IMG/VR virus record: IMGVR_UViG_3300000101_000007
Location: 1 to 22,362 of that record
Direction: 5' to 3' (one strand)
DNA from: a virus
DNA length: 22,362 nucleotides
In this document: positions 4,575 to 21,173 of the stretch, one piece after another
Layout of the letters: each line of letters starts with the position of its first letter
Numbering within the stretch: position 1 is the first letter of the stretch
Notes under the pieces: model-generated
Database searches by the model: none
Told to the model about the DNA's origin: nothing
The model's input: the letters and a program-made list of their open reading frames with translations, nothing else
Position numbers and translations under genes: made by a program

Positions 4575-4579
4575 ATTAG

Positions 4580-4587
4580 TATTTATC
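4580..4587 (-). promoter_or_regulatory. T4-late-like octamer GATAAATA
   Basis: On the minus strand GATAAATA (4587-4580), one base from the T4 late consensus TATAAATA, ends five bases before the ATG of the tail-fibre-like gene. T4 late elements span about -13 to -6, so transcription would begin at or next to the ATG. It is the prototype here of a motif repeated before other operons. Confidence 0.55.
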
Positions 4588-4607
4588 CTTTATACAGAAA
4601 AGCCGGT

Positions 4608-5897
4608 TTATTGCACTTTCAGCAAGATTATATCATTATTTATCCGACCGTTCAGCTTTATGTCCACTGCTTTAATGTCATCTAGGAAAGATCTCAACTT
4701 AACTTTACCACTATTCTTAAATTCTTTCAGTTGTTCTTCAGGTTTACGCAGTGTTTTTTGAATACTTTCTTTTTCGTTAAACCCTGTAATCGTTGTACCT
4801 TTTACACTCAGCCCACTACCTTCACGTTGTTGTCCTAGGGGATCTTGTATATCTGCAACATACTTTCCTATCTTACGTGTTTTAGAATTAAACACCCAAA
4901 GCTCGTTGCATTTAATAATATCCTCAGGATTAATACTAGCAAGTTGATACTTGTCATCTGTTGTTTTAAATTTTAATTTTGATACAAGTTTATCTGCACT
5001 GTACACCTTACGTTTACGTGGCTTACGTGTTGCCTTGCTTGAATCAATAACAACCTGACAAGCACCGTATAACCTTTCTAGTGCTGTTAGCATGTTCTTA
5101 AGTTCTTTTTTAGTTGTAAACTCGTATGCTTCTTGTAGTTGAGCCGCAAAATCTTTTTCTTGCTCAGTTGCATCTTTTTTCAACTTAGGCGGATTCAGCA
5201 CTTCTTTAATTTCTTTAAGTTCGGGCTCATATAATCCCATAATCTTACGAGCATGTGCTTGTGTTATTTTCATCTGAACAAAGTGTTTTGCAAAATCGAA
5301 TCCTTTAGGATCAAACTTGTTATCTTTCTCACTCCACACTTCTAACCATGTGTCAATTTTTTCACAAGCAGCAATAGCTTGTAGTTCAATACGTTCTTGA
5401 ATACTAATTACACGTTTCTGTGGCTTTTCTTTTAGCTCTTCTTCTCTCTCTTCTTTAGATTCCTTACCTGCTTGTATTGCGATCTCAATTCTCCTTTCAA
5501 GAAAGTCAATATGTGATGATAATTGTCCCATAGTTCCAGCTAGTGATTCCCAATGGTCTGCTTCTTTCTGAGAAAATCTTGGTGCACCTTTTATATCCAT
5601 ACGTGCAACAATGCCAGCAGTAGTACTAATTGTATGTTTAGGAGCGCCTTTGATCCATTTCATTTGATCTTTAGTATACTTGTTTTCTTTTTCCATCCAG
5701 ACATATACGTTAGTGTATAAGTCCTCTGGTTTGAAGTGTTCGTAATACCAACTGTTGGTAGCTCGGCGATGCTTATGAATTTGCTCACCAGTCCACTCTT
5801 CCCAACCGTCCCAATTAGGCTCCACGAGCTTTGCGCCACGCTGAACACGCGGTGCTGCTCTCGGCTTCTTCTTCTTGGTACTTTTAGGCAATGCCAT
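4608..5897 (-). CDS. Large basic phage protein of unknown function
   Basis: I do not recognise a catalytic family in this 429-residue protein. It opens with a very basic tail (STKKKKPRAAPRVQRGAK, about 5-22). A tryptophan-rich segment follows, then long charged helices with coiled-coil character, including EREEELKEKPQKR and the regions around 130-175 and 215-290. A second basic patch is KATRKPRKRK. The C-terminal third looks globular, with an ELWVFNSKTRKIGKY strand pair and a final FLDDIKAVDIKLNGRINNDIILLKV-type beta segment. It may be a DNA-associated or assembly protein. It has its own sigma70-like promoter and an AGGAG site, unlike the late tail-fibre-like gene that follows. Confidence 0.75.
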   Translation of the reverse strand: MALPKSTKKKKPRAAPRVQRGAKLVEPNWDGWEEWTGEQIHKHRRATNSWYYEHFKPEDLYTNVYVWMEKENKYTKDQMKWIKGAPKHTISTTAGIVARMDIKGAPRFSQKEADHWESLAGTMGQLSSHIDFLERRIEIAIQAGKESKEEREEELKEKPQKRVISIQERIELQAIAACEKIDTWLEVWSEKDNKFDPKGFDFAKHFVQMKITQAHARKIMGLYEPELKEIKEVLNPPKLKKDATEQEKDFAAQLQEAYEFTTKKELKNMLTALERLYGACQVVIDSSKATRKPRKRKVYSADKLVSKLKFKTTDDKYQLASINPEDIIKCNELWVFNSKTRKIGKYVADIQDPLGQQREGSGLSVKGTTITGFNEKESIQKTLRKPEEQLKEFKNSGKVKLRSFLDDIKAVDIKLNGRINNDIILLKVQ

Positions 5898-5922
5898 CTG
5901 TTGCTCCTATGATAAAAATATT

Positions 5923-5951
5923 ACTATACGATGATATATATCATTTGTCAA
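5923..5951 (-). promoter_or_regulatory. Sigma70-type promoter with palindromic spacer
   Basis: On the minus strand TTGACA (5951-5946) and TATAGT (5928-5923) are 17 bases apart, close to ideal. The spacer contains ATGATATATATCAT (5931-5944), a perfect 14-base palindrome lying between the two boxes, where a dimeric repressor could block polymerase. It serves the large basic protein starting at 5897, whose AGGAG site is downstream. Confidence 0.8.
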
Positions 5952-5976
5952 GAAAAATCTGCTCTAAACGAATCAT

Positions 5977-6645
5977 TCATGTTAGATTTTTCGCAATAGG
6001 AAAAATTTCTGAGATGACTTTAGCACACGCTACAGCAATGTCCATATGCTCTTTTTGTGTTCCATTTGCACCTCTAAGTTGAATATAATGTACCCAACTT
6101 CTAATTGTTCCATTCATGTAAAGACGTGTTTTGGTAAGTCCTTCAGGCAGTACTTTTCGTGCCTGTTCTTTCGCAATGCCTTTCTTAATGGCCCAGTCGT
6201 ATTCTTTTTTTGCTAAATGTGCGATACGCATTTGTGCATGTAACCAATCAAGTTGTAGTTTTTCATCTTCAACATTGATAGAATTTTGTCTGTTCTTAGG
6301 ATCTTGTAAACGTGCTTCGCTGAATTCAAACATTTCGCCTTGTTCTTTAGGATCAGCATAACGTTGACTAAACTCTTGAAAAGCAAAACTACGATGACGC
6401 ACAATTTGGTGTGCAATATCTCTAGTTGTGTTAATTTCTAGTACAGCGTTGACCATCTCCAATGGCGACCAATGTTGATGTTTGATTAGATACTTGATTA
6501 ACCTCTCGCTGGTATCGTTATTAATCTGTGCTTGTGGATTGGATACCTTTGCACAAAATGCAATAAGTTCTTGCAGATCTGTCAAACCTTCATTTTCAAA
6601 TTCTTCTGTTGCTCGGCTGTACGATACTAATTTTACTTCTGTCAA
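5977..6645 (-). CDS. thyX: Flavin-dependent thymidylate synthase ThyX
   Basis: The 222-residue enzyme converts dUMP to dTMP using FAD, NADPH and methylenetetrahydrofolate, supplying thymidine for phage DNA. The diagnostic ThyX motif RHRxxSxxxxSxRY is modified only slightly, as RHRSFAFQEFSQRY at 83-96. The flanking IKHQHWSPLE (54-63), TTRDIAHQIVRH (73-84) and late NGTIRSWVHYIQLR segment with TQKEH are also as expected. The likely start is TTG at 6645, since AAGGA is eight bases upstream and the next ATG (residue 64) would remove part of the fold. It lies downstream of the Hc1-like gene and is separated from it by a hairpin. Confidence 0.97.
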   Translation of the reverse strand: MTEVKLVSYSRATEEFENEGLTDLQELIAFCAKVSNPQAQINNDTSERLIKYLIKHQHWSPLEMVNAVLEINTTRDIAHQIVRHRSFAFQEFSQRYADPKEQGEMFEFSEARLQDPKNRQNSINVEDEKLQLDWLHAQMRIAHLAKKEYDWAIKKGIAKEQARKVLPEGLTKTRLYMNGTIRSWVHYIQLRGANGTQKEHMDIAVACAKVISEIFPIAKNLT

Positions 6646-6670
6646 CTTTTTATTCCTTATGTAAAGTAAA

Positions 6671-6694
6671 GTAGGGCTACACTCGTAGCCCTAC
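6671..6694 (-). terminator. Strong hairpin, likely terminator or attenuator
   Basis: GTAGGGCTAC and GTAGCCCTAC form a perfect 10-base stem with a four-base loop, between the Hc1-like stop and the thyX start. Read on the minus strand it is followed by TTTACTTTAC, a weak U-rich tail. It probably ends most Hc1-like transcripts or sets a reduced level of thyX read-through, since no separate thyX promoter is visible. Confidence 0.65.
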
Positions 6695-6705
6695 ATATGG
6701 GTGGG

Positions 6706-6903: not shown

Positions 6904-6952
6904 AATTTATGTTTCCCTTATAATCTATGCTGAGAGTCTTCTCAACAGTCAT

Positions 6953-6981
6953 AGTATATAAGCCTAGACTGCAAAAGTCAA
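6953..6981 (-). promoter_or_regulatory. Sigma70-type promoter of the Hc1-like gene
   Basis: On the minus strand TTGACT (6981-6976) and TATACT (6958-6953) are 17 bases apart. The leader of about 45 bases contains a small hairpin, TGAGA/TCTCA (6931-6944). The promoter lies back to back with the plus-strand octamer at 6993 that precedes the radical SAM operon, so two different promoter types share this 105-base gap. Confidence 0.7.
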
Positions 6982-6992
6982 CTAATAAAGTG

Positions 6993-7000
6993 GTTAAATA
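6993..7000 (+). promoter_or_regulatory. T4-late-like octamer GTTAAATA before radical SAM operon
   Basis: GTTAAATA ends eight bases before the ATG at 7009. The same octamer occurs on the minus strand at 20333-20340 with a five-base gap. No Shine-Dalgarno precedes the ATG, and no TTGACA/TATAAT pair was found on this strand. If used, it would give an mRNA with only about three leader bases. Confidence 0.4.
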
Positions 7001-7008
7001 CGTACATA

Positions 7009-7998
7009 ATGAATGATTTTACTCTTATTCCGTTCCACAACATTGTTAAGTTCGGACAAACAACAATGCTAGAACAACCACTGTTCAACGTTAGTTGGAT
7101 ACTTGGCCGCTTCTGTAATTACAGTTGTAGTTACTGCTGGCCGTATGCAAATTCAAATGTTCCTGACCATCAAGACTTTGATGTGTATACAAATGCAATT
7201 GACGAAATTAAACGACAGGCAAGAGAAAACGGATTTACTGATTTCCATTTTAGTTTCAGTGGTGGCGAGCCAACAGCATATAAAAAGTTTGGTGATCTAG
7301 TTGAGTACTATGCTAACGACAATGAGGCTAAGTATCAAAGCATACACCTTACAACGAATTTAAGTCCAGGTGAAAAATGGTGGGCAAGATTTATAAACAA
7401 CACCAGCCACTTGACCCGTCGTAGTATCACTGCAAGTTATCATGCAGAGTTTGCAAACGAAAAAGATTTTGAAGATAGATGCTTACAGCTCATGGAGGGA
7501 GGAGTATTTGTTACAATTAATCAAGTTATGGTTCCTGAATACTTTGAAGAATATTATGAACGTTGCAGTAGATTTGCAGACAAAGGAATTAACGTTACTC
7601 TTAAACCGCAGTCCGATCCTACCGCGTCTAGAATAGTAGACGGTTATACTGATGAACAAATTGACAAGTTACAAACAGGCTTCCCACAGAATTGGAATGG
7701 TGAGCAAATTGTGCAAATGTATCTAGAAGATGCTAAAGGTAATGATTACGGATTGGATCAAGCAGAAAGAATGAATGCATTCAACTTCAACAAGTTTAAA
7801 GATTGGCATTGTAACGCAGGGTATCAAAGCTGCATTATAAGGGGTGACGAAGTTAAAAGAGCATATAGTTGCAGTGACATCCCCTTAGGAACGCTACAGG
7901 GCGGTTTTAAGCTGTTTAAGACACCATCTAAGTGTATTACTAGCTCTTGTGTAAGCAGTGCAGACAGTAAGATACCAAAGGTACTACATGAAAGTTGA
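7009..7998 (+). CDS. Radical SAM protein with SPASM-like C-terminus
   Basis: The 329-residue enzyme should bind a 4Fe-4S cluster and S-adenosylmethionine to make a 5'-deoxyadenosyl radical. It has CNYSCSYC with Cys36, Cys40 and Cys43, and SGGEPT with GGEP at 85-88. LTTNLSPGEKWW follows at about 114-125, then SYHAEF (143-148) at the place where SPASM enzymes usually have 'SIDG'. The C-terminal third has spaced cysteines (268, 275, 288, 309, 314) suggesting an auxiliary cluster. It is the first gene of a five-gene plus-strand operon; the methyltransferase overlaps its end. The SYHxEF signature is shared with the rSAM at 11075 and, less exactly, that at 12066. The substrate is unknown; peptides and sugars are both possible. 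Confidence 0.88.
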   Translation: MNDFTLIPFHNIVKFGQTTMLEQPLFNVSWILGRFCNYSCSYCWPYANSNVPDHQDFDVYTNAIDEIKRQARENGFTDFHFSFSGGEPTAYKKFGDLVEYYANDNEAKYQSIHLTTNLSPGEKWWARFINNTSHLTRRSITASYHAEFANEKDFEDRCLQLMEGGVFVTINQVMVPEYFEEYYERCSRFADKGINVTLKPQSDPTASRIVDGYTDEQIDKLQTGFPQNWNGEQIVQMYLEDAKGNDYGLDQAERMNAFNFNKFKDWHCNAGYQSCIIRGDEVKRAYSCSDIPLGTLQGGFKLFKTPSKCITSSCVSSADSKIPKVLHES

Positions 7999-8593
7999 AT
8001 TAGCAGATATAAAATTTTGGATGGATGCAATTCGCAACAGCGAAGATAGAGATCGTACGCTTGAAAGTTTTTGGGGAGGCCAATTAAAATCTAAAGAATG
8101 GTTAGTTGAAACCCTACAAAGACACCATCACGTTGGCAATGTTAATTGTGTTATATTTGGAGGATGGAATGGTGTATTAGCAAATTTATTGTTTAACAGT
8201 ACAATAGGATTTAAACACATTACAAGTGTTGACATTGATCCTAAGTGTGCAGAAATAGCAAACACAATGAATAAGCGTTACGAGATGGAAGGAAAATTTT
8301 TAGCAGTAACAGCTGACATGTGTGATTATGAATACACTGATCAACCTTACATGGTTATCAATACAAGTTGCGAACATCTTACACAACAACAATATAACAA
8401 ATGGGCAAAACGTGTGCCAACAAGTACTGAAGTAATTTTACAATCTAATAACTATTTTGAACTAGAAGAACATGTAAACTGTTCTAGTAGTGTTAGCAGT
8501 TTTGAAAAAAAATCTAAACTAAAAACTGTACTAGTTAAAGATGAGCTAGAGTTACCTAAATATAAACGTTACATGTTATTAGGAAGATTTTAA
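7988..8593 (+). CDS. Class I SAM-dependent methyltransferase-like protein
   Basis: The start at ATG 7988 is chosen because AAAGG lies six bases upstream and it overlaps the previous gene by only 11 bases; this gives 201 residues. Strand and loop CVIFGGWNGVLANLL (54-68) serve as the glycine-rich motif I, TSVDIDPKCAEIA (79-91) as motif II with an acidic end, and AVTADMCDY (106-114) as the next strand. MVINTSCEH (122-130) holds the position of the catalytic-side strand. This order is that of a Rossmann methyltransferase, although the 'GxGxG' is atypical (GGWNG). It lies between two radical SAM genes, so it probably methylates an intermediate or product of theirs. Confidence 0.7.
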   Translation: MKVELADIKFWMDAIRNSEDRDRTLESFWGGQLKSKEWLVETLQRHHHVGNVNCVIFGGWNGVLANLLFNSTIGFKHITSVDIDPKCAEIANTMNKRYEMEGKFLAVTADMCDYEYTDQPYMVINTSCEHLTQQQYNKWAKRVPTSTEVILQSNNYFELEEHVNCSSSVSSFEKKSKLKTVLVKDELELPKYKRYMLLGRF

Positions 8594-9675
8594 TGTTTGA
8601 CTTTTCAGATCTTAAAACAATACACATTGAGCTGACAACAAATTGTCAAGCTAAGTGTCCTATGTGTTCACGTAATATACACAGTGGTATTGAAAACCCA
8701 TTACTAAAAATTGTTGGCTGGACACTAGAAGATTTTAAAACTATTATAAACAAAGAAGTATTAGAAACAGTTGATCGTATATACTTTTGCGGAAACTTCG
8801 GTGATCCTTTGCTTAATGACAACCTTATTGAAATCTGCAAGTACGCAAAAGAAACAAGTCCTAAAACTGCAATAGGCATTCATACAAACGGTAGTTTAAG
8901 AAATGCAAAATGGTGGGCAGATCTAGCACAGTCTTTACCACAAGATCATTGTGTATATTTTGCACTTGACGGTTTAGAAGATACTCATAAATTATATAGA
9001 GTTGGCACTGACTGGAACAAGATTATAGAAAATGCAAAAACATTTATTGAAGCAGGCGGCCGCGCTAACTGGACTTACATTAAATTTAAACATAACGAAC
9101 ACCAAGTAGAAGAATGTAGAAAGATTGCAAAAGAAGTTGGCTTTCAAGATTTCACAGTTAAGAACACATCAAGATTTTTAGTTGAACCTAAGTATGATGT
9201 ATGGGATAATAAAAGAATACCTATATACAGCCTAGAAGCACCATCTGATACTGAGACACATTTTTTACCTAAAGAAGTAATCAATGATTATAAGTCAGTG
9301 TTAGATGAAGCTGAAATAGATTGTCATGTACAAAAGATTAAAGAAGTTTATATTGACGGATTTAAAACTTTATTACCTTGTTGTTGGTTAGCACAAACAC
9401 CAATGACGTTTTACGATCCTACACATATTTGCGAAGATGTAGTAGACATGTTGCGTAACCAATACAATAAAATGATAAGTGACTTTGGTGGTATACAAAA
9501 TATTGATGCAACAAAAGGAATAAAAAATATTATAAGTTCTGACGTATGGCAAAACATATGGAAGAAAAAGTGGAACGAAGATAAAATGTTAATGTGTGCA
9601 AGAACCTGTGGCAAGTTTAAAACTTTTGATATTTCACAACCACAAGATCAATTTATAGAAAGAGAAATGTTATAA
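8593..9675 (+). CDS. Radical SAM/SPASM protein
   Basis: A 360-residue radical SAM enzyme. CQAKCPMC gives Cys18, Cys22 and Cys25. The GGEP site is replaced by GNFGDPLL (about 75-82), a variation seen in SPASM radical SAM enzymes. IHTNGSLRNAKWW follows, then ALDGLEDTH in the canonical 'SIDG' place. The C-terminal region carries IDCHVQ, LLPCCWLA and MCARTCGKF (Cys335, Cys339), consistent with one or two auxiliary clusters and the usual 'v..DG.v.PCC' SPASM rhythm. An AGGAAG site precedes the ATG, which overlaps the methyltransferase stop by one base. The next gene begins at its own last base, so all are surely co-translated. Confidence 0.9.
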   Translation: MFDFSDLKTIHIELTTNCQAKCPMCSRNIHSGIENPLLKIVGWTLEDFKTIINKEVLETVDRIYFCGNFGDPLLNDNLIEICKYAKETSPKTAIGIHTNGSLRNAKWWADLAQSLPQDHCVYFALDGLEDTHKLYRVGTDWNKIIENAKTFIEAGGRANWTYIKFKHNEHQVEECRKIAKEVGFQDFTVKNTSRFLVEPKYDVWDNKRIPIYSLEAPSDTETHFLPKEVINDYKSVLDEAEIDCHVQKIKEVYIDGFKTLLPCCWLAQTPMTFYDPTHICEDVVDMLRNQYNKMISDFGGIQNIDATKGIKNIISSDVWQNIWKKKWNEDKMLMCARTCGKFKTFDISQPQDQFIEREML

Positions 9676-11078
9676 TGACTTGGTACTACGACAAAGAAGA
9701 TACTAGACTAGGTAAGTTCCAAAGAGAACTTGCAGAAGCATCTACGGAATCATTTTGTGTGTTACCTTGGATACACATGGCAACTAGACCAAATGGTGAT
9801 ATGCGATTATGTTGCACATCTAATGCAAGTGGAGCAGGTGATGATCATGAAGTAGGACTTGTAAAGATGGAAGATGGCAAGCCTGCAAACTTTGGTAAAC
9901 ATACTCCTATGGAGGCATGGAATAACGATTACATGAAAAGTGTACGTACAACAATGTTGCGTGGAGAAATTCCTGTAAGTTGTAAAGGTTGTTTTAAAGA
10001 AGAGTCGCAAGGCATAGTTAGCAAACGTATTTGGGAAAGTGCAACATGGAAAAATGACGAAGGTGTTGATATACCAGAGCTTATTGCACAGACACAAGAA
10101 GACGGAACCGTACCTGAACAGTTACAATATCTGGATCTAAGATTAGGACATACATGCAATATTAAGTGTGTAATGTGTAGCCCACATGACAGTAGTAAGT
10201 GGGTTGCGGACCATAAAAAACTTATTCCTGTACTACAAGACCCAGAAGTCAAAAGGCAAATGCAATGGGATAAGAAACTTTTTAACAATAAATGGCATGA
10301 AAAAGACACCTTTTGGGAAGAGCTTAATGCACAAATACCTTACCTAAAGCAAGTATATTTTGCAGGCGGAGAGCCATTAATGATTAGAGAGCATAAACGC
10401 TTTCTAGAAGAAATTATTAAACAAGGGTATGCAGATAAAATATTAGTAAGATATAATTCTAACGGTTTACTAGTTGACGAAGAACTAATTGATATATGGA
10501 GTAAGTTTAAGAAAGTTAAGTTTGCTGTAAGTATTGACTCATACAAAGAACGTGATGAATATATTAGGTTTCCAACAGATTTTAAACAAGTTGAAAAAAC
10601 TTTACACATGCTAGACAATACACCAGATAACATTCATGTTAGTATTGCAACAGCCGTACAAATATTCAATATAAAAACTGTACCTGAATTTATCAAATGG
10701 AAAGTTAATAGTAATTTTAAAAAGATGAATGTTGGATTGATTGATGGACATGTTATGGGTGGAGGACTTGTAAATGCACATCTAGTACACATACCAACAT
10801 TTTTAAATATTACAATACTGCCTGAAAAAGACAAACAAGAAATACGTGAAAAGTTTGCTGAACTAAAGCAATGGTTATGGGATAACTTTACACAAGACGA
10901 TGAGTTTTGGAAACACAATCCTAAAGGTTGGCGCCAATGGGAAGGACTATTAAAGCACATGGATAGTTGTGATAACAGTCGTATGTTACCTGGCTTTAAA
11001 GAGTATGTAAATAAATTAGACGCAATCCGTGGCTTAGATGCTGCAACAGTATTTCCGGAGTTATCACATTTACTATGA
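9675..11078 (+). CDS. Twitch-domain radical SAM protein (N-terminal cluster)
   Basis: In this 467-residue protein the cysteine-rich auxiliary domain comes before the radical SAM core. Residues 26-110 carry FCVLPWIHMATRPNGDMRLCC with Cys28, Cys46 and Cys47, the AWNND..KSVR..ML.GE pattern, and CKGCF with Cys103 and Cys106. The core starts at YLDLRLGHTCNIKCVMC (Cys161, Cys165, Cys168), followed by AGGEPLM (230-236) and a canonical SIDSYKERDEYIR segment. This layout matches the family named twitch domain-containing radical SAM protein (NF033640 as I recall). A related protein (423 residues) is encoded on the other strand at 12967. It overlaps its neighbours by one and four bases. Confidence 0.9.
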   Translation: MTWYYDKEDTRLGKFQRELAEASTESFCVLPWIHMATRPNGDMRLCCTSNASGAGDDHEVGLVKMEDGKPANFGKHTPMEAWNNDYMKSVRTTMLRGEIPVSCKGCFKEESQGIVSKRIWESATWKNDEGVDIPELIAQTQEDGTVPEQLQYLDLRLGHTCNIKCVMCSPHDSSKWVADHKKLIPVLQDPEVKRQMQWDKKLFNNKWHEKDTFWEELNAQIPYLKQVYFAGGEPLMIREHKRFLEEIIKQGYADKILVRYNSNGLLVDEELIDIWSKFKKVKFAVSIDSYKERDEYIRFPTDFKQVEKTLHMLDNTPDNIHVSIATAVQIFNIKTVPEFIKWKVNSNFKKMNVGLIDGHVMGGGLVNAHLVHIPTFLNITILPEKDKQEIREKFAELKQWLWDNFTQDDEFWKHNPKGWRQWEGLLKHMDSCDNSRMLPGFKEYVNKLDAIRGLDAATVFPELSHLL

Positions 11079-12974: not shown

Positions 12975-14238
12975 ACGGAGCAAACTCCGGATTAATAACT
13001 TCGAACGGTCCTTGTTTACGACTCTTGTCTAAGTTGCGATTAAAATTAATGCAGTCTTGCCATAGTTCGTCATGTAGATCATCTGCTTTTAAGAAGTTAA
13101 TATTATCCTGAATCTGCGTTAGTGTAAATTCCTTAATACGGTCGTCACTTTTAACGAGTTTGTAATCTAGCACCTTTGTTTTCATTGCTTCTAGTTTAGC
13201 AATAACTTGTTGTTTTAGTTGTGGTGGAATACATTGTGCTGATAAAGCTCTTGGATATTGCACCCTATGACTATAAAAAATAATGTCCATGTTTTCCATG
13301 AAGTATTCTATAACTTTATCTATCTGCATTATGTTGTTTGCTTGTACTGTAAATGCTCCAACAATTCTACTTACTGTTGGTATTGTTTTCATTATTTTAA
13401 TGTTTTCTTCAATCTCTGCAAACTTACCATTTCCTCTAATATATTCATATACATCAAACACACCATCAATTGAAACATTAACTGCAACACTTTTAAACTT
13501 AGGCCAGTAATCGTGTATTGTACGTCCACCTTTGATTCCAAGTTTAGTTCCGTTAGTAGCATATTTGATTTCAATGTTTTTACCGTATGGAGCCAACATA
13601 TCTAAAATTTTATAATGTTGAGGATCCATTAAAGGTTCACCTCCTGCAAATTCTACACGTCTAAAGTGAGGCAGTAGTTTTTCAAATGACTTCCACCAGT
13701 TGTCTGTGTCATTAAATGCATCAATATACTTGCCTGGTGTGTCTACTAATTTATTAACTGTAGGTATAAGAAAGTTATTTTCTTTTTTATAAAATTCTGT
13801 AACTTGGTCCCAGTCTTTCCATTGTGTACTATCTAGTGGGTTGCACATACGACACTTTAAGTTACACAGGTTGTTAAGTTTAACTTCCATAGTAGGCATT
13901 TCAAACGGCATACTGTAATCGTCTTCTAGTGCGTCTAAAGCATCTGGGTATAAGTTGATCCTTGCTTCAGGTATTACTCCTGCTGTATGACGCTGTCGTA
14001 AGCTCTGTACACCCTGATCTTCTAGTCTAAAGCAAGGCTCACAAACATCAGGACGTTCATCATTCATAACCTGTCGACGAACTTCTTTCATCTTATCGCC
14101 ATTCCAAATTTCTTCTAGTGTGTTGTCTTTGATATCGCCAATAGGAGCACTACGGCAGCAAATCTTAATTGCACCATCTTCTCTAGTTGCTAATCCTGTA
14201 AAAGGATGCATACAAAATGTTTTACTTTTGCATGGCAT
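12967..14238 (-). CDS. Twitch-domain radical SAM protein (N-terminal cluster)
   Basis: The second protein of the twitch-first type, 423 residues. The N-terminal domain has FCMHPFTGLATREDGAIKICC (Cys9, Cys27, Cys28), IGDI..NTLEEIWN...M.EVR, and CEPCF (Cys66, Cys69). The core has LNNLCNLKCRMC (Cys125, Cys129, Cys132), AGGEPLMDP with GGEP at 199-202, and VSIDGVFDVYEYIRG, fully canonical. It has a strong GGGGAG site six bases before the ATG and overlaps the QueC-like gene by 17 bases. With the twitch gene at 9675 it forms a mirrored pair around the convergent point at 12066-12088, suggesting that both act on related substrates. Confidence 0.9.
   Translation of the reverse strand: MPCKSKTFCMHPFTGLATREDGAIKICCRSAPIGDIKDNTLEEIWNGDKMKEVRRQVMNDERPDVCEPCFRLEDQGVQSLRQRHTAGVIPEARINLYPDALDALEDDYSMPFEMPTMEVKLNNLCNLKCRMCNPLDSTQWKDWDQVTEFYKKENNFLIPTVNKLVDTPGKYIDAFNDTDNWWKSFEKLLPHFRRVEFAGGEPLMDPQHYKILDMLAPYGKNIEIKYATNGTKLGIKGGRTIHDYWPKFKSVAVNVSIDGVFDVYEYIRGNGKFAEIEENIKIMKTIPTVSRIVGAFTVQANNIMQIDKVIEYFMENMDIIFYSHRVQYPRALSAQCIPPQLKQQVIAKLEAMKTKVLDYKLVKSDDRIKEFTLTQIQDNINFLKADDLHDELWQDCINFNRNLDKSRKQGPFEVINPEFAPYV
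12976..12989 (-). promoter_or_regulatory. Small hairpin over the Shine-Dalgarno of the rSAM gene
   Basis: Read on the minus strand, CGGAG-TTTG-CTCCG forms a five-base stem, four-base loop. The stem contains the GGAG that would serve the ATG at 12974. A ribosome finishing the upstream twitch gene (stop at 12969-12967) would open the stem, which would couple the two products. Confidence 0.35.
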
Positions 14239-14959
14239 TCATTACTCCCCATTGTCTTTCTTGACACCAAAAACATTTCTTGCATGTTGGTACATATTGT
14301 CCGGGTGTGTATGTTTTATAATCTAGTCCTTTAAAGACTTCTGGATATTGATCGTTGTCACCTTCACAACTTCTAGTGATGTTTAACAACTCAGCAATAT
14401 CATGTTTTATATATTGTCCTATAACCCAATCTTTTTTACTTGCAATAAAAGGGTGACAAACTGTTACGCCCATGTGTGTCATTATAGCATCTATTGCCGG
14501 CTCTTGTCTATCACTCATTGCGCCATCAAATTCTACATCAGGATTTAGTGTAACGGCTGCAAACCATGCATCTAAGTTTACTTTGTGTGCAAGGTACTCG
14601 TTAAACGATCTTAATATAATTCTATTGCCTGACTTCATTTTACCATTTTCATCTTTAATCATAGTGGTATGTGGCTCTTCAAGCTCTGGTGGAATAAAGT
14701 TAACGTGTCTTTCAAACTCAAGATTAGGAAAACGACCTACAAACCAATCAAATACTTCAGCTGAAATATGCTCTTGCCATGGACGTGATTTCCACATTCT
14801 AACTTGTGTACTAATGTGTACTTTGCAGTTGTCATGCAGGTTTTGGCAAATTAAATACGCAAGTAACGCACTATCTGCTCCTCCACTTAAACTAATACCA
14901 ACGTTTTTCCATGCTATGTCCATTGGTAAGATTACATCGTCAATCTTTATTTTACGCAT
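14222..14959 (-). CDS. QueC-like PP-loop ATPase
   Basis: With ATG 14959 the protein has 245 residues. The PP-loop SGGADS is at 25-30, after strand VGIS, where ATP is bound and a substrate is adenylated. The C-terminus has CKKCFWCQERQWG with Cys226, Cys229 and Cys232, plus RSCEGDNDQYP with Cys198. QueC has the same four-cysteine zinc site with 'CGxCxxCxxR'; the loop is longer here (27 residues between the first and second cysteine). So the family is QueC/ExsB-like, which makes 7-cyano-7-deazaguanine or amidates/activates acids in relatives. No QueE or FolE is visible, and the operon leads into two radical SAM genes, so a different acid substrate is plausible. TTG 14974 and ATG 14965 are alternative starts. 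Confidence 0.8.
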   Translation of the reverse strand: MRKIKIDDVILPMDIAWKNVGISLSGGADSALLAYLICQNLHDNCKVHISTQVRMWKSRPWQEHISAEVFDWFVGRFPNLEFERHVNFIPPELEEPHTTMIKDENGKMKSGNRIILRSFNEYLAHKVNLDAWFAAVTLNPDVEFDGAMSDRQEPAIDAIMTHMGVTVCHPFIASKKDWVIGQYIKHDIAELLNITRSCEGDNDQYPEVFKGLDYKTYTPGQYVPTCKKCFWCQERQWGVMNAMQK

Positions 14960-14964
14960 AATCA

Positions 14965-14972
14965 TATTTACC
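14965..14972 (-). promoter_or_regulatory. T4-late-like octamer GGTAAATA
   Basis: Minus-strand GGTAAATA (14972-14965) ends five bases (TGATT) before ATG 14959 of the QueC-like gene. No Shine-Dalgarno is present. The mirror copy for the plus strand is at 15001, 28 bases away, so the two operons diverge from a shared control region. Confidence 0.5.
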
Positions 14973-15000
14973 AAGTTATGTACACAGTTAAATTAGTTCC

Positions 15001-15008
15001 GGTAAATA
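15001..15008 (+). promoter_or_regulatory. T4-late-like octamer GGTAAATA
   Basis: GGTAAATA ends five bases (TGCAT) before ATG 15014. Octamer and spacing match the divergent copy at 14965-14972. If real, it sets the start of the downstream hydroxylase at 15014 rather than at the earlier ATG 14978. Confidence 0.5.
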
Positions 15009-15013
15009 TGCAT

Positions 15014-15673
15014 ATGATCCAAAATACCAAATATACAGTACCTTTAGAGGTGATAGAGGGTGTAATGGGCGATGTTTACGAAATAGGAAAATTTGATATT
15101 TCAGAACAGACTGGCAGTTTCTTTTATGATCCTTGGCAGTTAAAACCAGAGTACTTGGGTACACAATGGGAATCTATTTGGAATAGTTTACCAGAACCTA
15201 AAGGACAAGCTAGAATTATTATTTTAGAATCGCCTAGTTGCTATACCTCACATGCAGACATTGATAATCGATGGCACTTAAATTTATGTGGCGACGAAGC
15301 CTATCTTATTGACTTAGAAAAAGAAGAAATGTTTAAAACTGTACTTGACGGTAAATGGTATGACATGGACGCAGGTATTCCACACACTGCAATGAATATA
15401 GGAGCTCACATAAGAGCTCAACTAGTTGTAAGAAAATTACTACCTAAGAATATTATTAATGATCCAAAGCATGTTAGAATAACAGGCTCAGAAGGAAACG
15501 TAAGATACGAGTTTGATAAGTATCTAAGTCCGTGGTTAAACAGGGCGGCAAACAATCAAAAAGTTATTAGCAACGTAAAAGTTGTTGAACAAGGTATAGA
15601 GTTTGACATTGAAGCAGGATTAGTAAATCAAATTCCTGTTCCACCAAATATGAAAATAGGAATAGACGAATGA
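15014..15673 (+). CDS. Aspartyl/asparaginyl beta-hydroxylase-like dioxygenase
   Basis: The chosen start is ATG 15014 (219 residues), five bases after a late-like octamer; an in-frame ATG at 14978 would add 12 plausible residues and cannot be excluded. The double-stranded beta-helix signature is clear: CYTSHADIDNRWHLNL has His80, Asp82, Arg86 and His88, and GIPHTAMNIGAHIRAQLVVR has His124, Arg134 and Arg140. His-x-Asp and the distal His would bind Fe(II), and an Arg would hold 2-oxoglutarate. This is the pattern of Asp/Asn hydroxylase-like proteins (PF05118 type) found in marine phages. It opens a seven-gene plus-strand operon and overlaps the kinase-like gene by four bases. Confidence 0.72.
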   Translation: MIQNTKYTVPLEVIEGVMGDVYEIGKFDISEQTGSFFYDPWQLKPEYLGTQWESIWNSLPEPKGQARIIILESPSCYTSHADIDNRWHLNLCGDEAYLIDLEKEEMFKTVLDGKWYDMDAGIPHTAMNIGAHIRAQLVVRKLLPKNIINDPKHVRITGSEGNVRYEFDKYLSPWLNRAANNQKVISNVKVVEQGIEFDIEAGLVNQIPVPPNMKIGIDE

Positions 15674-16359
15674 AGGATTGGCAACCATATCTTAAATTAG
15701 ATGAAGTAGGGTTTCCGTGTATGGCACAGCAAACTTATGAACCTCTTATAAGTGGAGACGGAACAACATTTTGTAAAAATTATAATGTTGATAGTGAATA
15801 TCAAAAGATGGAGAACAAACCAAGACCACTTTACACTAAAGAAATTGTTGATTGGTTTTTTCAAAACGAACTAGCATACTTAGAGCTTTTTAAAGATAAA
15901 AAGTATGCACCAGAAGTTAAAGATATTGATTACAAAAATCAAAAGATTTATATTAAATGGTATGGCAAGAGCTGTAACCAAATAATTAATGATCCTGAAA
16001 TTAAAGAGTGGCCTGAGTATATGTGGCGTAGGCAAATTAGAGATATTATAGTTGACCAGTATGATGAAGGTATCTACAAGTTAACAATGTATCCACACTG
16101 TCACTATATTACAGATACAAAACAAATGAAAGCAATTGATTGGTACGGCTGTGTTCCTATTGACGATCCTTTCATTGAGCAAAAATATATGCAAGGTATT
16201 ATACACGACACAGCACAATTTAGACTAGACGAAACAGGTGAGCCAATTGACGATAAGGTCAATTTAGAAATTATGTTTAAGCGTAGTCTAGGAGAACATG
16301 TTTTATGGGGAGATGAAAACATGAGTTACATATACAAGGAATTGTTTGGAGATGGCTAA
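15670..16359 (+). CDS. Kinase-fold-like protein, paralogue of the gene at 19635
   Basis: The 229-residue protein shares a layout with the minus-strand protein at 19635: TFCKNYNVDSEYQ (33-45), APEVKDIDYKNQKIYIKWYGK (80-100), then GIYKLTMYPHCHYITDTKQMKAIDW (134-158). The last segment has the rhythm of the phosphotransferase/LPS-kinase catalytic loop ('l.H.D..p.Nil....g...iIDw'), but the catalytic HxD is not preserved, while Asp157 in the 'IDW' position is kept. It may be a degenerate kinase-like or substrate-binding protein; this is inference from spacing. AGGA precedes an ATGA overlap with the hydroxylase gene. Confidence 0.6.
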   Translation: MKDWQPYLKLDEVGFPCMAQQTYEPLISGDGTTFCKNYNVDSEYQKMENKPRPLYTKEIVDWFFQNELAYLELFKDKKYAPEVKDIDYKNQKIYIKWYGKSCNQIINDPEIKEWPEYMWRRQIRDIIVDQYDEGIYKLTMYPHCHYITDTKQMKAIDWYGCVPIDDPFIEQKYMQGIIHDTAQFRLDETGEPIDDKVNLEIMFKRSLGEHVLWGDENMSYIYKELFGDG

Positions 16360-16930
16360 ACTAGTTGGTACAACTAAAGATGTTATAGACTGGGATCCTA
16401 TAGTTGATCTGTGTGCTAAATGCACCACTGGCGATTATAATTCAGTTAAGACAGTTGTAGATCGTTCAGAAGGTAACTGGAGAGACAATCCAGAATTACT
16501 AGGCTCATATCACAATGTAATTGATACTTGGGATAAAGCAGGTTATAACCTAGATGAAATTCAATGGTGGGATTACTATCCTGGAGAACATTTTGATATT
16601 GACATACAAAACAAGTTTGCTAAAATTATAGATGCAGAGCCGTTGCGAGTATTTGTAAGTGATGTTGCTCCATGTAACAATGTTCCTTATCATTGGGACG
16701 TAGAAGATAAAGAAGAAGAATGGTTAAAACTAGGTGAACTTAAACGTTGGGTATGTTTTATGGACAAGCCACGTTGGGGTAATGTACTAGTGTTAGAAGA
16801 ACAAGCATTTCATAATGTAGCACAAGGCGAAATATGGGAATGGGATAGTTATAGAAGCTATCATGCAGGAACTTGTATGGGTGTACATCATCAATACTTG
16901 TTTCATTTTTTAGGAAGGCCGAACAAATGA
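16352..16930 (+). CDS. 2OG/Fe(II)-dioxygenase-like beta-helix protein (first of tandem pair)
   Basis: ATG 16352 gives 192 residues (a TTG at 16346 is also in frame). The signature is VPYHWDVED with His114-x-Asp116, then KRWVCFMDKPRWGNVLVLEE, AFHNVAQGEIWEWD, and SYHAGTCMG with His171 as the distal iron ligand candidate. An 'RWG.v.v' and '.QGe.WEWd' set sits between them, as in the following gene. The family resembles the Asp/Asn hydroxylase-like cupins. The next gene is a clear paralogue (DWDP/DWDS, HWDV, QG...WEW, HAGT), so the pair arose by duplication. Substrate unknown. Confidence 0.68.
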   Translation: MAKLVGTTKDVIDWDPIVDLCAKCTTGDYNSVKTVVDRSEGNWRDNPELLGSYHNVIDTWDKAGYNLDEIQWWDYYPGEHFDIDIQNKFAKIIDAEPLRVFVSDVAPCNNVPYHWDVEDKEEEWLKLGELKRWVCFMDKPRWGNVLVLEEQAFHNVAQGEIWEWDSYRSYHAGTCMGVHHQYLFHFLGRPNK

Positions 16931-17454
16931 AGCATTTAGGTGTATGTAATACTATTGATTGGGATAGTGTAATAGAACAATGTGCAAGTGTCGAACCTGA
17001 GTTTGTAGGACCTAGTCATAAGCGTGGTGACACTGTTCCTGGACTAGATCCTATATTAGATATGTGGGAAGAAGCAGGCATTAAAACTGTACACGAAGGT
17101 GGCACAGCAGGTTGGGATATGTTTATTCCAGGTAAACAATTTGATCAAAGCATAGTTGATGCTTGGAACGAGTTTTACGGATTAGACTGTAAAAACGTGT
17201 GGATAAGTAGAATACACCCAGGACGTTTTGCACCTATTCATTGGGACGTACATGACAATGAAGAAAACATTCCTGATTGTCCTAGATATCATTGCCATAT
17301 AGGCAGTCCGCAATGGGGGCATATTTTTATTGCTGGTAATGATACATTTTATAATATTCCACAAGGTGCAACTTACGAGTGGGAAGATAGAAAGATTTGG
17401 CACGCCGGAACAAATTGCGGAACAGTGCCTAAGTATATATGGAACGCATGGTAA
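16927..17454 (+). CDS. 2OG/Fe(II)-dioxygenase-like beta-helix protein (second of tandem pair)
   Basis: The start is ATG 16927, overlapping the previous stop as ATGA, with AGGAAGG upstream; 175 residues. FAPIHWDVHDNEE has His105-x-Asp107, SPQWGHIFIAGNDTFYNIPQGATYEWED continues the beta-helix, and IWHAGTNCG supplies His159. It parallels the preceding protein along its length but is shorter and lacks the RW arginine of that one. Two such enzymes side by side suggest hydroxylation at two positions or of two substrates. The next gene overlaps its stop by one base. Confidence 0.68.
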   Translation: MKHLGVCNTIDWDSVIEQCASVEPEFVGPSHKRGDTVPGLDPILDMWEEAGIKTVHEGGTAGWDMFIPGKQFDQSIVDAWNEFYGLDCKNVWISRIHPGRFAPIHWDVHDNEENIPDCPRYHCHIGSPQWGHIFIAGNDTFYNIPQGATYEWEDRKIWHAGTNCGTVPKYIWNAW

Positions 17455-18053
17455 TGGAAAACATTTTATATTTAGATCACCCGTGGATTTCTGTTTACAC
17501 AGATGTTGTAGATAATGAAACCTGTGATAAGTTTGTTAAAAAATATACAGAACTAGGAATGAATCCTAATGCAGGGTTAGAGTCTAGAGAACAAACATAC
17601 GGACAAATTACTGAAGAAGTAGAACAGCGTAGTATTAGCTGGGACACTTCATCTGAAGATAGACAGTTTTTTAGAGATAAAATTTGCGAAGTATTAAAGA
17701 TACCTGATAGTCATATTGAAGCTGGGGATATCTATAGATACGATACAGGCCAATACTTTGGACTGCACCACGACTTTCCATACACACCAGAAGACATTGC
17801 TTATTACGCAAAAGGAGGTGATAGAAAAGCAACTGCAATATTTTGGTTAAATGATGGATATGACGGAGGCGAATGTAAGTTTCCAGAGTTAGGTGTTTGT
17901 GTTACTCCTGAAAAAGGAGGAATGATGTACTTTGAGTACGACTATGAAGATGAAAAAATAAACAAAATGACAATACATGAAGGCATGCCAATTACTAAAG
18001 GAGCCAAGTGGATTGCTGCATTTTTTATTGCAAACGGTCCGAGGGTAGAATGA
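17454..18053 (+). CDS. Prolyl 4-hydroxylase-like 2OG/Fe(II) dioxygenase
   Basis: Start chosen at ATG 17454 (TAATG overlap; ATGs at 17439 and 17448 are in frame), 199 residues. IYRYDTGQYFGLHHDFPY carries His105-x-Asp107, GGDRKATAIFWLNDGYDGGECKFPELG is the classic P4H strand pair ('r..t...YLN....GGet.Fp..g'), VTPEKGGMMYF follows, and IHEGMPITKGAKW has distal His175 and Lys185 in the place where P4H binds the 2-oxoglutarate carboxylate. All expected catalytic residues are present, so it should be an active hydroxylase. Phage and host relatives act on proline-like peptide residues or small molecules; the substrate here is unknown. Confidence 0.88.
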   Translation: MENILYLDHPWISVYTDVVDNETCDKFVKKYTELGMNPNAGLESREQTYGQITEEVEQRSISWDTSSEDRQFFRDKICEVLKIPDSHIEAGDIYRYDTGQYFGLHHDFPYTPEDIAYYAKGGDRKATAIFWLNDGYDGGECKFPELGVCVTPEKGGMMYFEYDYEDEKINKMTIHEGMPITKGAKWIAAFFIANGPRVE

Positions 18054-18508
18054 ACGTTGTAGTATTAGGCGGAACAAAAGGAGTAGGGCAACTACTTTCA
18101 GCATATTTCAAACTTAAAAATGCTGATGTAAAAGAGTTTGGTAAAAGCAGTTCGTTTGATGAAGTAGTTGATGTTGCTAAAACTTGTGATGTTTTTATTT
18201 GCAATGCTTACGCAGATGGTAGGCAACTAAACTATATAGAAACACTAAAAGACTACAACATAAAAATTATAGTAAGTGGTAGTATTGCAGCAGATTCACC
18301 TGATCCTGATATGCCTGTGTACAGTTTAGATAAAAAGAACCTGCGTGAAAGAGTAATTGAATTATCACAATCTCGTCATACATGCAAAGCAGATATATTA
18401 CTACTAACACTAACAGGAACAGCAGTAAAAGAATATCAAACAATACATAACACAATAGACTATTGGTTAGAAAATAGCACAATTAACGAAATTAGGTTTA
18501 CAATATAA
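18050..18508 (+). CDS. Short SDR-type oxidoreductase
   Basis: The start is ATG 18050, inside the ATGA overlap with the hydroxylase, GAGGG upstream; 152 residues, shorter than usual SDRs (about 250). NVVVLGGTKGVGQ has the NAD(P)-binding glycine motif at 7-13, FICNAYADGRQL (49-60) the 'NNAG'-equivalent CNAY, IVSGSIAA (74-81) the catalytic Ser, and Tyr91-SLD-Lys95 the YxxxK pair. The C-terminal substrate region is missing or reduced. It is a paralogue of the following gene. It probably oxidises or reduces a hydroxyl/keto group on the product of the adjacent enzymes, perhaps as a heterodimer with its neighbour. Confidence 0.78.
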   Translation: MNVVVLGGTKGVGQLLSAYFKLKNADVKEFGKSSSFDEVVDVAKTCDVFICNAYADGRQLNYIETLKDYNIKIIVSGSIAADSPDPDMPVYSLDKKNLRERVIELSQSRHTCKADILLLTLTGTAVKEYQTIHNTIDYWLENSTINEIRFTI

Positions 18509-19108
18509 ATGACTAAAAAGATAGTGATTACAGGACACACCAGCGGTATTGGTAAAGCAATTTTTGATAAGTTTACAGAAGTAAGCTGTCATGAGATTAT
18601 AGGCATGAGTCGTAGCAACGGATATGATATTGAAAAAGATTTTGATAAAGTTGTACAAGAAGCAGCAGGCGCAGAAATTTTTATTAATAATGCATATAGA
18701 GATAAGCAGCAATTAAAGTTATTCCATGCACTTAAAGACAAAGTAGATATGATGATTGTTATGGGCAGTGTTAGCAGACAGTACCCTGAACTAATTACTA
18801 CAGACTATGTACAAGATAAGCAAGAACTTGCTGAAGCATGTAGATTAGAAAGTATTAATCCAGAAGGTATTCCTGTACTGCATTTAGATCTAGGATTTAT
18901 TGAAGGCACCACAGTAGAAAACGATGACCCTACTGCATTTGTAAGCGATTACAATACACCATTAAGTGATATAGTTGACACAATAATATTTTGGGCAAGT
19001 CACCCTAATATACGTCAAATTGAATTTAGGTGGAAATTAACTGATCACGTACTAAAAGAACTAGAACGTACCAATCCTAACTTAGACCCATCTAGGGTAC
19101 AATTCTAA
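18509..19108 (+). CDS. SDR-family NAD(P)-dependent oxidoreductase
   Basis: The 199-residue protein begins directly after the previous stop. KIVITGHTSGIG gives the nucleotide-binding motif at 8-15, GMSRSNGYDI the second strand with Arg, FINNAYRDKQQ (58-68) the NNAG-equivalent NNAY, VMGSVSRQ (84-91) the serine, and Tyr100-VQD-Lys104 the catalytic YxxxK. It is a compact SDR. With the previous gene it forms a diverged tandem pair. It ends the seven-gene plus-strand operon, and its last 27 bases overlap the end of the minus-strand gene at 19082. An oxidation following hydroxylation is a sensible role, though the substrate is unknown. Confidence 0.88.
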   Translation: MTKKIVITGHTSGIGKAIFDKFTEVSCHEIIGMSRSNGYDIEKDFDKVVQEAAGAEIFINNAYRDKQQLKLFHALKDKVDMMIVMGSVSRQYPELITTDYVQDKQELAEACRLESINPEGIPVLHLDLGFIEGTTVENDDPTAFVSDYNTPLSDIVDTIIFWASHPNIRQIEFRWKLTDHVLKELERTNPNLDPSRVQF

Positions 19109-19642
19109 ATTAGCATAAAATTTATCGGGGTGTATTTCCCACACAGTTTGGTCTGTGTGTCTATAATGTACTTCTTTAATTTTACTTACTACACCTATCT
19201 TAGCAAGTGTAGGAAAATATATAGAGTGTACTAGACGCTGACTTCCTTCTTTACTTTTATTTGATGTAGCAAACACTCTGCCTTTATCTTTTGTCCATTC
19301 TAAACAAGCTGGTAGCATAAACTGATCTGTCAAGTTTTGATGTTCAGCACAAAGCCTATTTGCTTTTACTAATCCGTTGTGTGGTCTTGCTTCTCCAAAC
19401 GTACATACTCTTGTAAGTATTCTATATGAGTTAGGTCCCATAACATCATCAAACGAATGTGCTGCTACACTTCCTATTGCTTTATCATCACTATAAAGTA
19501 TCCAAGCATTCCATTCACGTTCGTTGTGAAAGCAATCAATCATTGCTTTTTGACTAGCATTATTAACAAACCCACGTCGGTCTGCTTCATTGTAAAACTC
19601 AGACAAGTCTAAGTCTTTGTTCCACTGTACCATCTTATGCAT
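19082..19642 (-). CDS. Conserved phage protein, possibly GNAT-like
   Basis: ATG 19642 lies just inside the end of the kinase-like gene and gives 186 residues; ATG 19633 is also possible. WNAWILYSDDKAIGSVAAHSF looks like the paired central strands of a GNAT acetyltransferase, followed by YRILTRVCTFGEARP, a DQFMLPACLEW segment, ATSNKSKEGSQRLVH and FPTLAKIGVV. I recall similar proteins in marine phages but cannot place the family with confidence. No acetyl-CoA loop of the RxxGxG type is obvious. It ends in a 27-base convergent overlap with the SDR gene. Function uncertain; acyl transfer is a guess based on fold style. Confidence 0.55.
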   Translation of the reverse strand: MHKMVQWNKDLDLSEFYNEADRRGFVNNASQKAMIDCFHNEREWNAWILYSDDKAIGSVAAHSFDDVMGPNSYRILTRVCTFGEARPHNGLVKANRLCAEHQNLTDQFMLPACLEWTKDKGRVFATSNKSKEGSQRLVHSIYFPTLAKIGVVSKIKEVHYRHTDQTVWEIHPDKFYANLELYPRWV

Positions 19643-20327
19643 AGATTGCTTTTGCCTTTTCCATAACTTCATCAGGGAAGTTTGTTTTAAAACTATCAAA
19701 TGCTAGTAACTGTATTTGTGAATGAGGAGTATCTTTGTTTACGTCGATTCCAGCAGCTTCCATTTTAGGAAACAAGTCTGCTTGTCTATCTTCACTGATG
19801 TGACTCATCACACTGCGTAAACTAATACCAAGATCCTGATCACTGTATGTAAAGAAGTAATTAATACTTTTTAGTTTCCCCTCAACCACAAAATAACTGC
19901 TAGGGTGCATACTGTATTTGTACAACCCCAGATCCTTGTGTGCTTGAATAATCTCAAGCATTTGTTCTTCCCAATTATCAACTACACTGTAGTCGTTACC
20001 TTCACAACCTGCTAGTTCCCACATGTCAGGCCCATCAATTTTTAAGTATAGTTTTTTATTCATAAAATCAATATCTTGTATCTCTGGAACATGTTGTGGA
20101 TACTTCAATTCCATTTGCTGTATAAAGTTAACTTCACGTAACCATTTTTCTTCCATTAGGTCAGGATCCACTACTTGATTATGCCCACCATGATATTGTT
20201 CATCATTATAGTACCATTGGCAAAATGTCTTTTTATCCTTACTGATCAAACTAGTATATATTAGATTATTTCGGCATTGACCTTTACCAGGAACTGTGTT
20301 ATAATAATATTCAAAGTTGTTACTCAT
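19635..20327 (-). CDS. Kinase-fold-like protein, paralogue of the gene at 15670
   Basis: This 230-residue protein matches the one at 15670 block by block: TFCQWYYNDEQYH (34-46), VPEIQDIDFMNKKLYLKIDG (80-99), GLYKYSMHPSSYFVVEGKLKSINY (134-157). Compared with aminoglycoside/LPS-kinase-type proteins, the 'H.D..p.N' loop reads YSMHPSSYF and the 'IDW' aspartate is replaced by Asn156 (SINY), so normal phosphotransfer is doubtful. A late helix-rich tail (FPKMEAAGIDVNKD and after) is not shared. The ATG follows the octamer GTTAAATA after five bases and there is no Shine-Dalgarno. It opens a two-gene minus-strand operon. Confidence 0.6.
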   Translation of the reverse strand: MSNNFEYYYNTVPGKGQCRNNLIYTSLISKDKKTFCQWYYNDEQYHGGHNQVVDPDLMEEKWLREVNFIQQMELKYPQHVPEIQDIDFMNKKLYLKIDGPDMWELAGCEGNDYSVVDNWEEQMLEIIQAHKDLGLYKYSMHPSSYFVVEGKLKSINYFFTYSDQDLGISLRSVMSHISEDRQADLFPKMEAAGIDVNKDTPHSQIQLLAFDSFKTNFPDEVMEKAKAIYA

Positions 20328-20332
20328 AGTAC

Positions 20333-20340
20333 TATTTAAC
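20333..20340 (-). promoter_or_regulatory. T4-late-like octamer GTTAAATA
   Basis: Minus-strand GTTAAATA (20340-20333) ends five bases (GTACT) before the ATG at 20327. It directly abuts the plus-strand octamer at 20341-20348, so one 16-base block could serve both directions. No Shine-Dalgarno is present. Confidence 0.5.
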
Positions 20341-20348
20341 GGTAAGTA
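20341..20348 (+). promoter_or_regulatory. T4-late-like octamer GGTAAGTA
   Basis: GGTAAGTA ends five bases (TATAC) before ATG 20354. It is the most divergent copy of the octamer (G at the sixth position), but the spacing and the operon-leading position match the others. Confidence 0.4.
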
Positions 20349-20353
20349 TATAC

Positions 20354-21169
20354 ATGATTAGAGGAATTGGCGGAAAGCCTTACATTAACTTAGATCCACA
20401 CCTAGACATTTCGTCTTTTAAAGATCTGCATCCTGAGATTGCTAGAGGGTTTGCATTAGCAAGAGATTATGCAAAAGAGGGTACTTGGATGGCCCCTGGC
20501 TTTGAATGGAAGGATAGCAGTTATATTCTTAATTGGAAACCAATTTACAAAGCATGGGACGAGTATCAAGCATTAGATGATAACGATCCTATTAAAATCG
20601 AAGGTAATAAAATATTACCTACAGACTTTGGCGATTACAAACAGCGTAATATATTCACACGCTATTTAAAAGCAACAATGGGTGCTAATGATCCATACAT
20701 TTACTACTTCCTTTGGAATGAAGGTGACTGGAATGAACGTAATGCTGAAAGACAAAAGACTGAAGAAAGCAAATACTTTCCAGGTGTTGTAAAATGGGTA
20801 GAAGATTTACAAGCAAATAATATCATTGAACGCATTGGTAGAGTTATTTTCTTTCACTGCGATCATAATGGTAGAGCATTTGAACATAGAGATCTAGATG
20901 CAGACAACGGAGTACACGATGATAAACAATATAGTCCGCACAATAATGAATTCATACATATACGCTATCGCACAAAGAGAGGATTTTATATTTGGGATCC
21001 AGAGAGCGAGAACAAACATTACTTAAACTGTAACGCTGCTTTTTGGAATGACCAAGACTGGCACGGTGGCGAAAACAGTGTAGAAGTTGAATACGGTTTA
21101 CGTATTGACTGCAAATTTACAAACGATTTTAGAAAGAGGCTAGGGATTGATCATCTCAAAACATATTAG
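20354..21169 (+). CDS. 2OG/Fe(II)-dioxygenase-like beta-helix protein
   Basis: The 271-residue protein has a helical N-terminal half rich in Trp and Tyr. The C-terminal beta-helix contains FFHCDHNGRAFEHRDLD with His178-x-Asp180, IHIRYRTKRGFYIWDPES, HYLNCNAAFWND, DWHGGENS with His237 and YGLRIDCKF with Arg250, the expected iron and 2-oxoglutarate ligand set of Asp/Asn hydroxylase-like enzymes. It leads a two-gene plus-strand operon (octamer five bases before the ATG). Another beta-helix protein follows after four bases. Substrate not predictable. Confidence 0.7.
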   Translation: MIRGIGGKPYINLDPHLDISSFKDLHPEIARGFALARDYAKEGTWMAPGFEWKDSSYILNWKPIYKAWDEYQALDDNDPIKIEGNKILPTDFGDYKQRNIFTRYLKATMGANDPYIYYFLWNEGDWNERNAERQKTEESKYFPGVVKWVEDLQANNIIERIGRVIFFHCDHNGRAFEHRDLDADNGVHDDKQYSPHNNEFIHIRYRTKRGFYIWDPESENKHYLNCNAAFWNDQDWHGGENSVEVEYGLRIDCKFTNDFRKRLGIDHLKTY

Positions 21170-21173
21170 AAAC

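Follow-up and report, generated by a model that had tools for sequence, protein, structure and literature searches.

Probable late promoter elements at a fixed distance from the ATG: in large marine phages distantly related to T4, mRNAs almost certainly start with the initiation codon, as inferred from spacing

Certain large marine phages form a family distantly related to T4, and some of their mRNAs almost certainly start with the initiation codon and carry no leader, a conclusion inferred from the exact five-base spacing between a conserved octamer and the ATG. T4 and the other relatives studied differ in that space remains there for a ribosome-binding site. The DNA analysed here (the window) comprises the first 22,362 bases of the 107,186-bp virus record IMGVR_UViG_3300000101_000007 (G000), which is itself fragmentary. 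Judged from sequence alone, the octamers very probably are late promoters of the gp55 type from which leaderless transcripts arise, and would represent a variant of the T4 late promoter. The initial annotation had proposed this reading, and it is now supported by gap distributions with controls, conservation among orthologs, a pyrimidine at -1, a bias towards ATG, gp55 homologs and the identity of late genes; no 5' ends have been mapped.

In the explanation that we favour, the octamer would be the late promoter of a marine phage lineage of the T4 superfamily, a -10-like element apparently without a -35, and would be read by a gp55-type late sigma factor. At a large subset of the late promoters the element would cover positions -13 to -6, and the A of the ATG would be the first base transcribed; the resulting leaderless mRNA would be translated through recognition of its 5'-terminal AUG, without a Shine-Dalgarno (SD) sequence. 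The remaining late promoters of the same phages would keep the T4 layout, with the element 15–34 nt upstream together with an SD. Four points are inferred: the reading of the element by gp55, the late timing, the position of +1 on the A, and the translation of the mRNA without a leader. The position of +1, in particular, is predicted only from the spacing and the step from the -1 pyrimidine to the +1 A.

Gene starts were computed with a simple caller that used no knowledge of the motif. Relatives of the window were drawn from viral contigs; a megablast search for close cultured relatives gave no match, and neither did tblastn of the 20354 gene against cultured relatives. Three large viral contigs, the jumbo relatives G001, G002 and G003 (364, 358 and 282 kb), were analysed stretch by stretch, as were T4, the cultured Pelagibacter phage HTVC008M, KVP40 (first 200 kb only), Syn9, S-PM2 and Melnitz. 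A homology search found gp23, gp17, gp18, gp20, gp43, gp44 and gp55 homologs in G001–G003, which are therefore members of the T4 superfamily. G000 and HTVC008M have PAAR/gp5.4, nrdA and nrdB in common at 62–69% identity. Related upstream sequences that were compared with the window sites carry labels such as L133, L278 or L331.

Table 1. Putative late-promoter elements, the genes behind them and tetrapyrrole genes of the same record (positions in the window unless prefixed G000)
Feature	Position	Strand	Remarks
Putative late-promoter element GATAAATA	4580..4587	-	gap 5 to ATG 4574
Gene behind 4580..4587 element	3759..4574	-	weak tail-fibre/virion-protein similarity
Putative late-promoter element GGTAAATA	14965..14972	-	gap 5 to ATG 14959
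QueC-like gene (PHROG phrog_1550)	14222..14959	-	behind 14965..14972 element
Putative late-promoter element GGTAAATA	15001..15008	+	gap 5 to ATG 15014
Gene behind 15001..15008 element	15014..15673	+	no known family
Putative late-promoter element GTTAAATA	20333..20340	-	gap 5 to ATG 20327; G003 ortholog keeps gap 5
Gene behind 20333..20340 element	19635..20327	-	no family match
Putative late-promoter element GGTAAGTA	20341..20348	+	gap 5 to ATG 20354
Gene behind 20341..20348 element	20354..21169	+	no family match; found in marine virus contigs widely
Related element GTTAAATA	6993..7000	+	gap 8 to ATG 7009
Radical SAM gene behind gap-8 element	7009..7998	+	
Tetrapyrrole genes, outside window	G000:84655-88184	+	
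Tetrapyrrole genes, outside window	G000:95840-97045	+	
Tetrapyrrole genes, outside window	G000:53961-54506	-	

The five octamers and their ATGs were found where the initial annotation had placed them. It had also cautioned that chance copies must be counted in AT-rich DNA and had suggested scoring against a shuffled background. The window contains 5 copies of GNTAARTA-N5-ATG against 0.30 expected, a number that none of 100 dinucleotide shuffles reached. The core TAAATA is rarer there than expected (13 copies, 41 expected), and AT-richness is therefore no explanation for the octamer. The whole 107-kb record contains 12 copies, 7 of them outside the window, versus 0 in the reversed control. For gap 5 the window gives a Poisson probability of 3e-6, the remainder of the record, which constitutes an independent test, one of 5e-6, and both combined one of 1e-10; across G000 the histogram of element-to-ATG gaps has a lone spike at 5. 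All hexamers were also scored at all offsets from the called starts, in a scan that presupposes no motif. In G000 the top-ranked enrichment was TAAATA with its end 5 nt before the ATG. With G000, G001 and G003 pooled, it was the strongest signal except for SD sequences (31 of 156, p=5e-19). The octamer takes the form GNTAAATA or GNTAAGTA, and the consensus of the lineage lies near GATAAATA, with GATAAGTA tolerated.

The distance between element and ATG is bimodal in G000–G003 and HTVC008M, being either 4–5 or about 15–34 nt. Called starts at gap 4/5 number 12 in G000, 23 in G001, 22 in G002, 19 in G003 and 11 in HTVC008M, against 0 in T4, KVP40 (200 kb), Syn9 and S-PM2. The OM43 phage Melnitz has three gap-5 genes and thus at most a weak form of the layout. 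Syn9 and S-PM2 had been considered as carriers and were rejected for want of any such gene; for P-SSM2 and P-SSM4 only raw pattern counts were available, and these gave no excess over the reversed control. The count of TAAATA-N5-ATG in Sinorhizobium phage phiM12 was zero. Starts at gap 4/5 are nearly always ATG (87 ATG, 1 GTG), as expected of leaderless mRNAs, compared with 1377 ATG and 157 GTG/TTG among all called starts. A pyrimidine precedes the ATG in 63 of 64 gap-5 genes versus 616 of 1290 other ATG genes. In the 12 nt directly upstream of the element, no clear consensus was seen in the gap-5 set.

These distributions also bear on the possibility that the octamers are promoters whose transcripts begin a few bases to either side of the A, giving leaders of 1–5 nt or 5' ends within the codon. 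T4-type start sites can vary by about a base, 23 genes form a gap-4 subclass, and there are gap-8 sites like that at 7009. Against this, gap 5 predominates, gaps 9–15 are almost unoccupied and the step from -1 pyrimidine to +1 A is nearly invariant, so that we regard a shifted start as quite improbable.

Each of the five window genes has one or more partners with the same layout among G001–G003. The 4580..4587 element and its gap are retained in orthologs down to 72% identity (GAATAAATAGTAGTATG), and in G002 at 38%. The QueC-like gene has the leaderless layout in G001 and G002 as well, at 49–61% identity; an in-frame ATG at 14965, which overlaps its element, is gone in the relatives L292 and L298, and the gap-5 ATG is retained. 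The 15001..15008 element is conserved in L278–L287 and stands at gap 4 in G001, G002 and G003 (39–45% identity), while the longer start of this ORF at 14978 is not conserved, the equivalent ATG being absent in L278–L282. In the region 14957–15016 both divergent elements persist in orthologs and the sequence between them varies. The elements 20333..20340 (-) and 20341..20348 (+) are likewise divergent and abut with 0 bases between them. The claim that such genes lead operons holds for four of the five window sites, which are divergent, but not for 4587–4580, which falls within the 33 nt that separate its gene from a preceding one on the same strand. Over five phages, 30% of layout genes are divergent compared with 8% of other genes.

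The eight-base gap noted initially for a sixth site, at 7009, was confirmed. It is conserved over many orthologs, L331 alone being noted with gap 5, and this site lies outside the leaderless class, with a probable leader of 3 nt.

Several observations on gene content are recorded here in their own right. From window position 7009 to 21674, and on to G000:30783, radical SAM, dioxygenase-like and other enzymes are densely encoded; a joint pathway is unknown, and several genes of this run are headed by the late element. The minus strand of the window encodes a KDO-8-phosphate synthase (1793–2560), a QueD-like PTPS (2564–3046) and ThyX (5977–6645). Elsewhere G000 encodes a large part of a pathway for tetrapyrroles (5-aminolevulinate synthase, hemB, hemC, hemE, hemF and heme oxygenase), in which hemF has its own gap-5 late element. 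A CHASE2-adenylate/guanylate cyclase gene at G000:43843-45903 (-) shares an element in the leaderless layout with Melnitz (70% identity) and G001 (45%). Curli-like-looking genes occur at G000:48397-51761 (-), as in HTVC008M, with a CsgG homolog at 50275-51306, and a gene for the ribosomal protein bS21 at G000:57292-57624 (-) has counterparts in G001, G002, HTVC008M and Melnitz.

An SD precedes 72% of the genes at gap 15–34 and 15% of those at gap 4–5, and hence is missing from 28% of the leadered and 85% of the gap 4–5 class. The earlier statement that these genes mostly lack an SD thus stands as a description; as evidence it carries less weight, since the octamer occupies the SD position and the absence is partly forced. 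We therefore relied instead on a swap between orthologs, which is stronger evidence than plain SD absence. Among 48 distinct ortholog upstreams of the 20354 gene, 41 retain the element at exactly gap 5, and all 41 lack an SD; the 7 others have no element and all have an SD. In the 41 the N5 spacer varies (32 distinct sequences) and the base at -1 is a pyrimidine in every case, and 36 also keep the element on the opposite strand. At least three of the 7 element-less orthologs (L133, L144, L145) have a TAAATA core 19–22 nt upstream. Ortholog pairs below 80% identity that share the layout number 46 against 7.4 expected; the corresponding Fisher p of 2e-30 is overstated because pairs are not independent.

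The same exclusion of SD by octamer, at the very position of the SD, would be expected if the octamer were a translational signal, be it an A/U-rich non-SD ribosome-binding site, an S1 site or a RegA-type operator, in leadered mRNAs with promoters further upstream. It would also suit the 43% of layout genes in the five phages that lie closely behind a same-strand gene. However, the same core is found 15–34 nt upstream alongside an SD in the same genomes, and the three orthologs just named combine it with an SD; where divergent elements abut, no further promoters would fit between the two genes; the octamer matches the T4 late element in phages that bear gp55 and stands before late, not replication, genes; and the pyrimidine at -1 suits the initiation of transcription, not the binding of ribosomes. 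A purely translational role is accordingly one that we hold to be quite improbable.

The late-promoter reading draws further support from the genes concerned. The layout is found in HTVC008M at gp2 (DNA end protector), gp48, gp25, gp3 and the tape measure gene, and in the jumbo relatives at gp17 (G001, G002 and G003), gp6 (G003) and gp13 (G001); in the window it precedes one tail-fibre-like gene, one QueC-like gene and three of no known family. None of the replication, recombination and nucleotide-metabolism homologs that were checked has a late element at gap 4/5. By homology, and without timing data, the element would thus appear to drive T4-type late genes. Homologs of the late sigma factor gp55 (phrog_234) are encoded by 8 of the 11 related contigs, with E values between 1e-22 and 1e-26. 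Neither gp55 nor most T4 core genes were found in the 107-kb fragment G000, and gp33 was not detected in G001–G003. In the same three contigs gp45 was found neither by its PHROG profile, which matched nowhere and is weak evidence, nor by tblastn with the HTVC008M clamp; the HTVC008M annotation lists a sliding clamp and a putative late-promoter factor.

Some genes of G001, G002, G003 and HTVC008M have a different, sigma70-like promoter near the ATG, of the type TTGACA-N16-18-TATAAT with the -10 ending 5–7 nt before it, e.g. gp47 in G003; in G001, gp41 has a TATAAT 6 nt before its ATG. Such -10 elements are concentrated in this lineage. Their position would put +1 on the A or beside it, which suggests leaderless early mRNAs too. 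Given these leaderless-looking sigma70 promoters, and the resemblance of TAAATA to a weak TATAAT, the octamers might themselves be -10 elements of host sigma70 instead of gp55-type promoters. This we judge very improbable: the sigma70 set has another geometry, with TTGACA at -35 and a -10 ending 5–7 nt from the ATG, the late set is located on T4 late genes, and in the abutting divergent pairs a -35 would fall inside the opposite gene. Short of 5'-end mapping, nothing argues more strongly for leaderless mRNAs than two promoter classes of unlike geometry that share one target base. A phage-wide leaderless programme, in which early sigma70 and late gp55 promoters both have the A of the ATG as their +1 and translation during infection is biased towards 5'-terminal AUGs, perhaps with help from bS21, is an unlikely though conceivable extension. 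The link of bS21 to leaderless translation is speculation, no bS21 gene was found in G003–G008, and a search for a phage-encoded IF3 as a modulator of leaderless translation found none.

Chance in AT-rich DNA has nothing but the composition in its favour and merits practically no credence, as the counts in window and record, the shuffles, the gap distributions and the conservation among orthologs have already refuted it, and T4, which is more AT-rich, has 0 called genes at gap 4/5. Against gp55-type promoters of leaderless mRNAs we count the lack of mapped 5' ends, the lack of gp55 and most T4 core genes in the fragment G000, the undetected gp33 and gp45 of the jumbo relatives, the genes closely behind a same-strand gene, a 4-nt SD match in 11 of 71 layout genes and the simplicity of the gene caller.

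For pelagimyophages, a published method of late-promoter prediction failed (PMC7029224), for which the gap-4/5 layout is a likely reason. The layout yields a simple search rule (RTAARTA, 4–5 nt, ATG), corrects the calling of start codons and gives a prediction that can be tested in cultured phage; the late transcription of the textbook phage T4 would become a leaderless system in marine phages. In the open-access literature, the coverage of which is incomplete, no report of leaderless T4-type late mRNAs was found.

The T4 late promoter (TATAAATA; gp55 late sigma, gp33, gp45 clamp) resembles the marine one in the octamer core, the gp55 homologs of the lineage, the location on late and structural genes and, as far as the 12 nt upstream of the marine element show, the lack of an evident -35. 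In T4, however, the element lies about 12–35 nt upstream and is accompanied by an SD, whereas in the marine lineage it abuts the ATG at gap 4–5, has G instead of T at its first position and tolerates AAGTA; gp33 and gp45 are, as stated, not detected in the jumbo relatives. The late promoter of T4-like cyanophages is NATAAATA (S-PM2, Syn9; PMC2984593), alike in element and superfamily; in Syn9 and S-PM2 it is always leadered. In the Thermus phage phiYS40, middle and late mRNAs largely lack leaders, as cited in PMC3594737. The likeness here lies in leaderless middle and late phage mRNAs, and the host, Thermus, differs. Changed levels of IF2/IF3 have reportedly been proposed as the mechanism, and phiYS40 is not known to use the T4 gp55 system. 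In Deinococcus-Thermus, finally, a -10 element a few bp before the start codon gives rise to leaderless mRNA (PMC12340547), a placement like that described here, but in cellular genes and with the housekeeping sigma factor instead of a phage late sigma.
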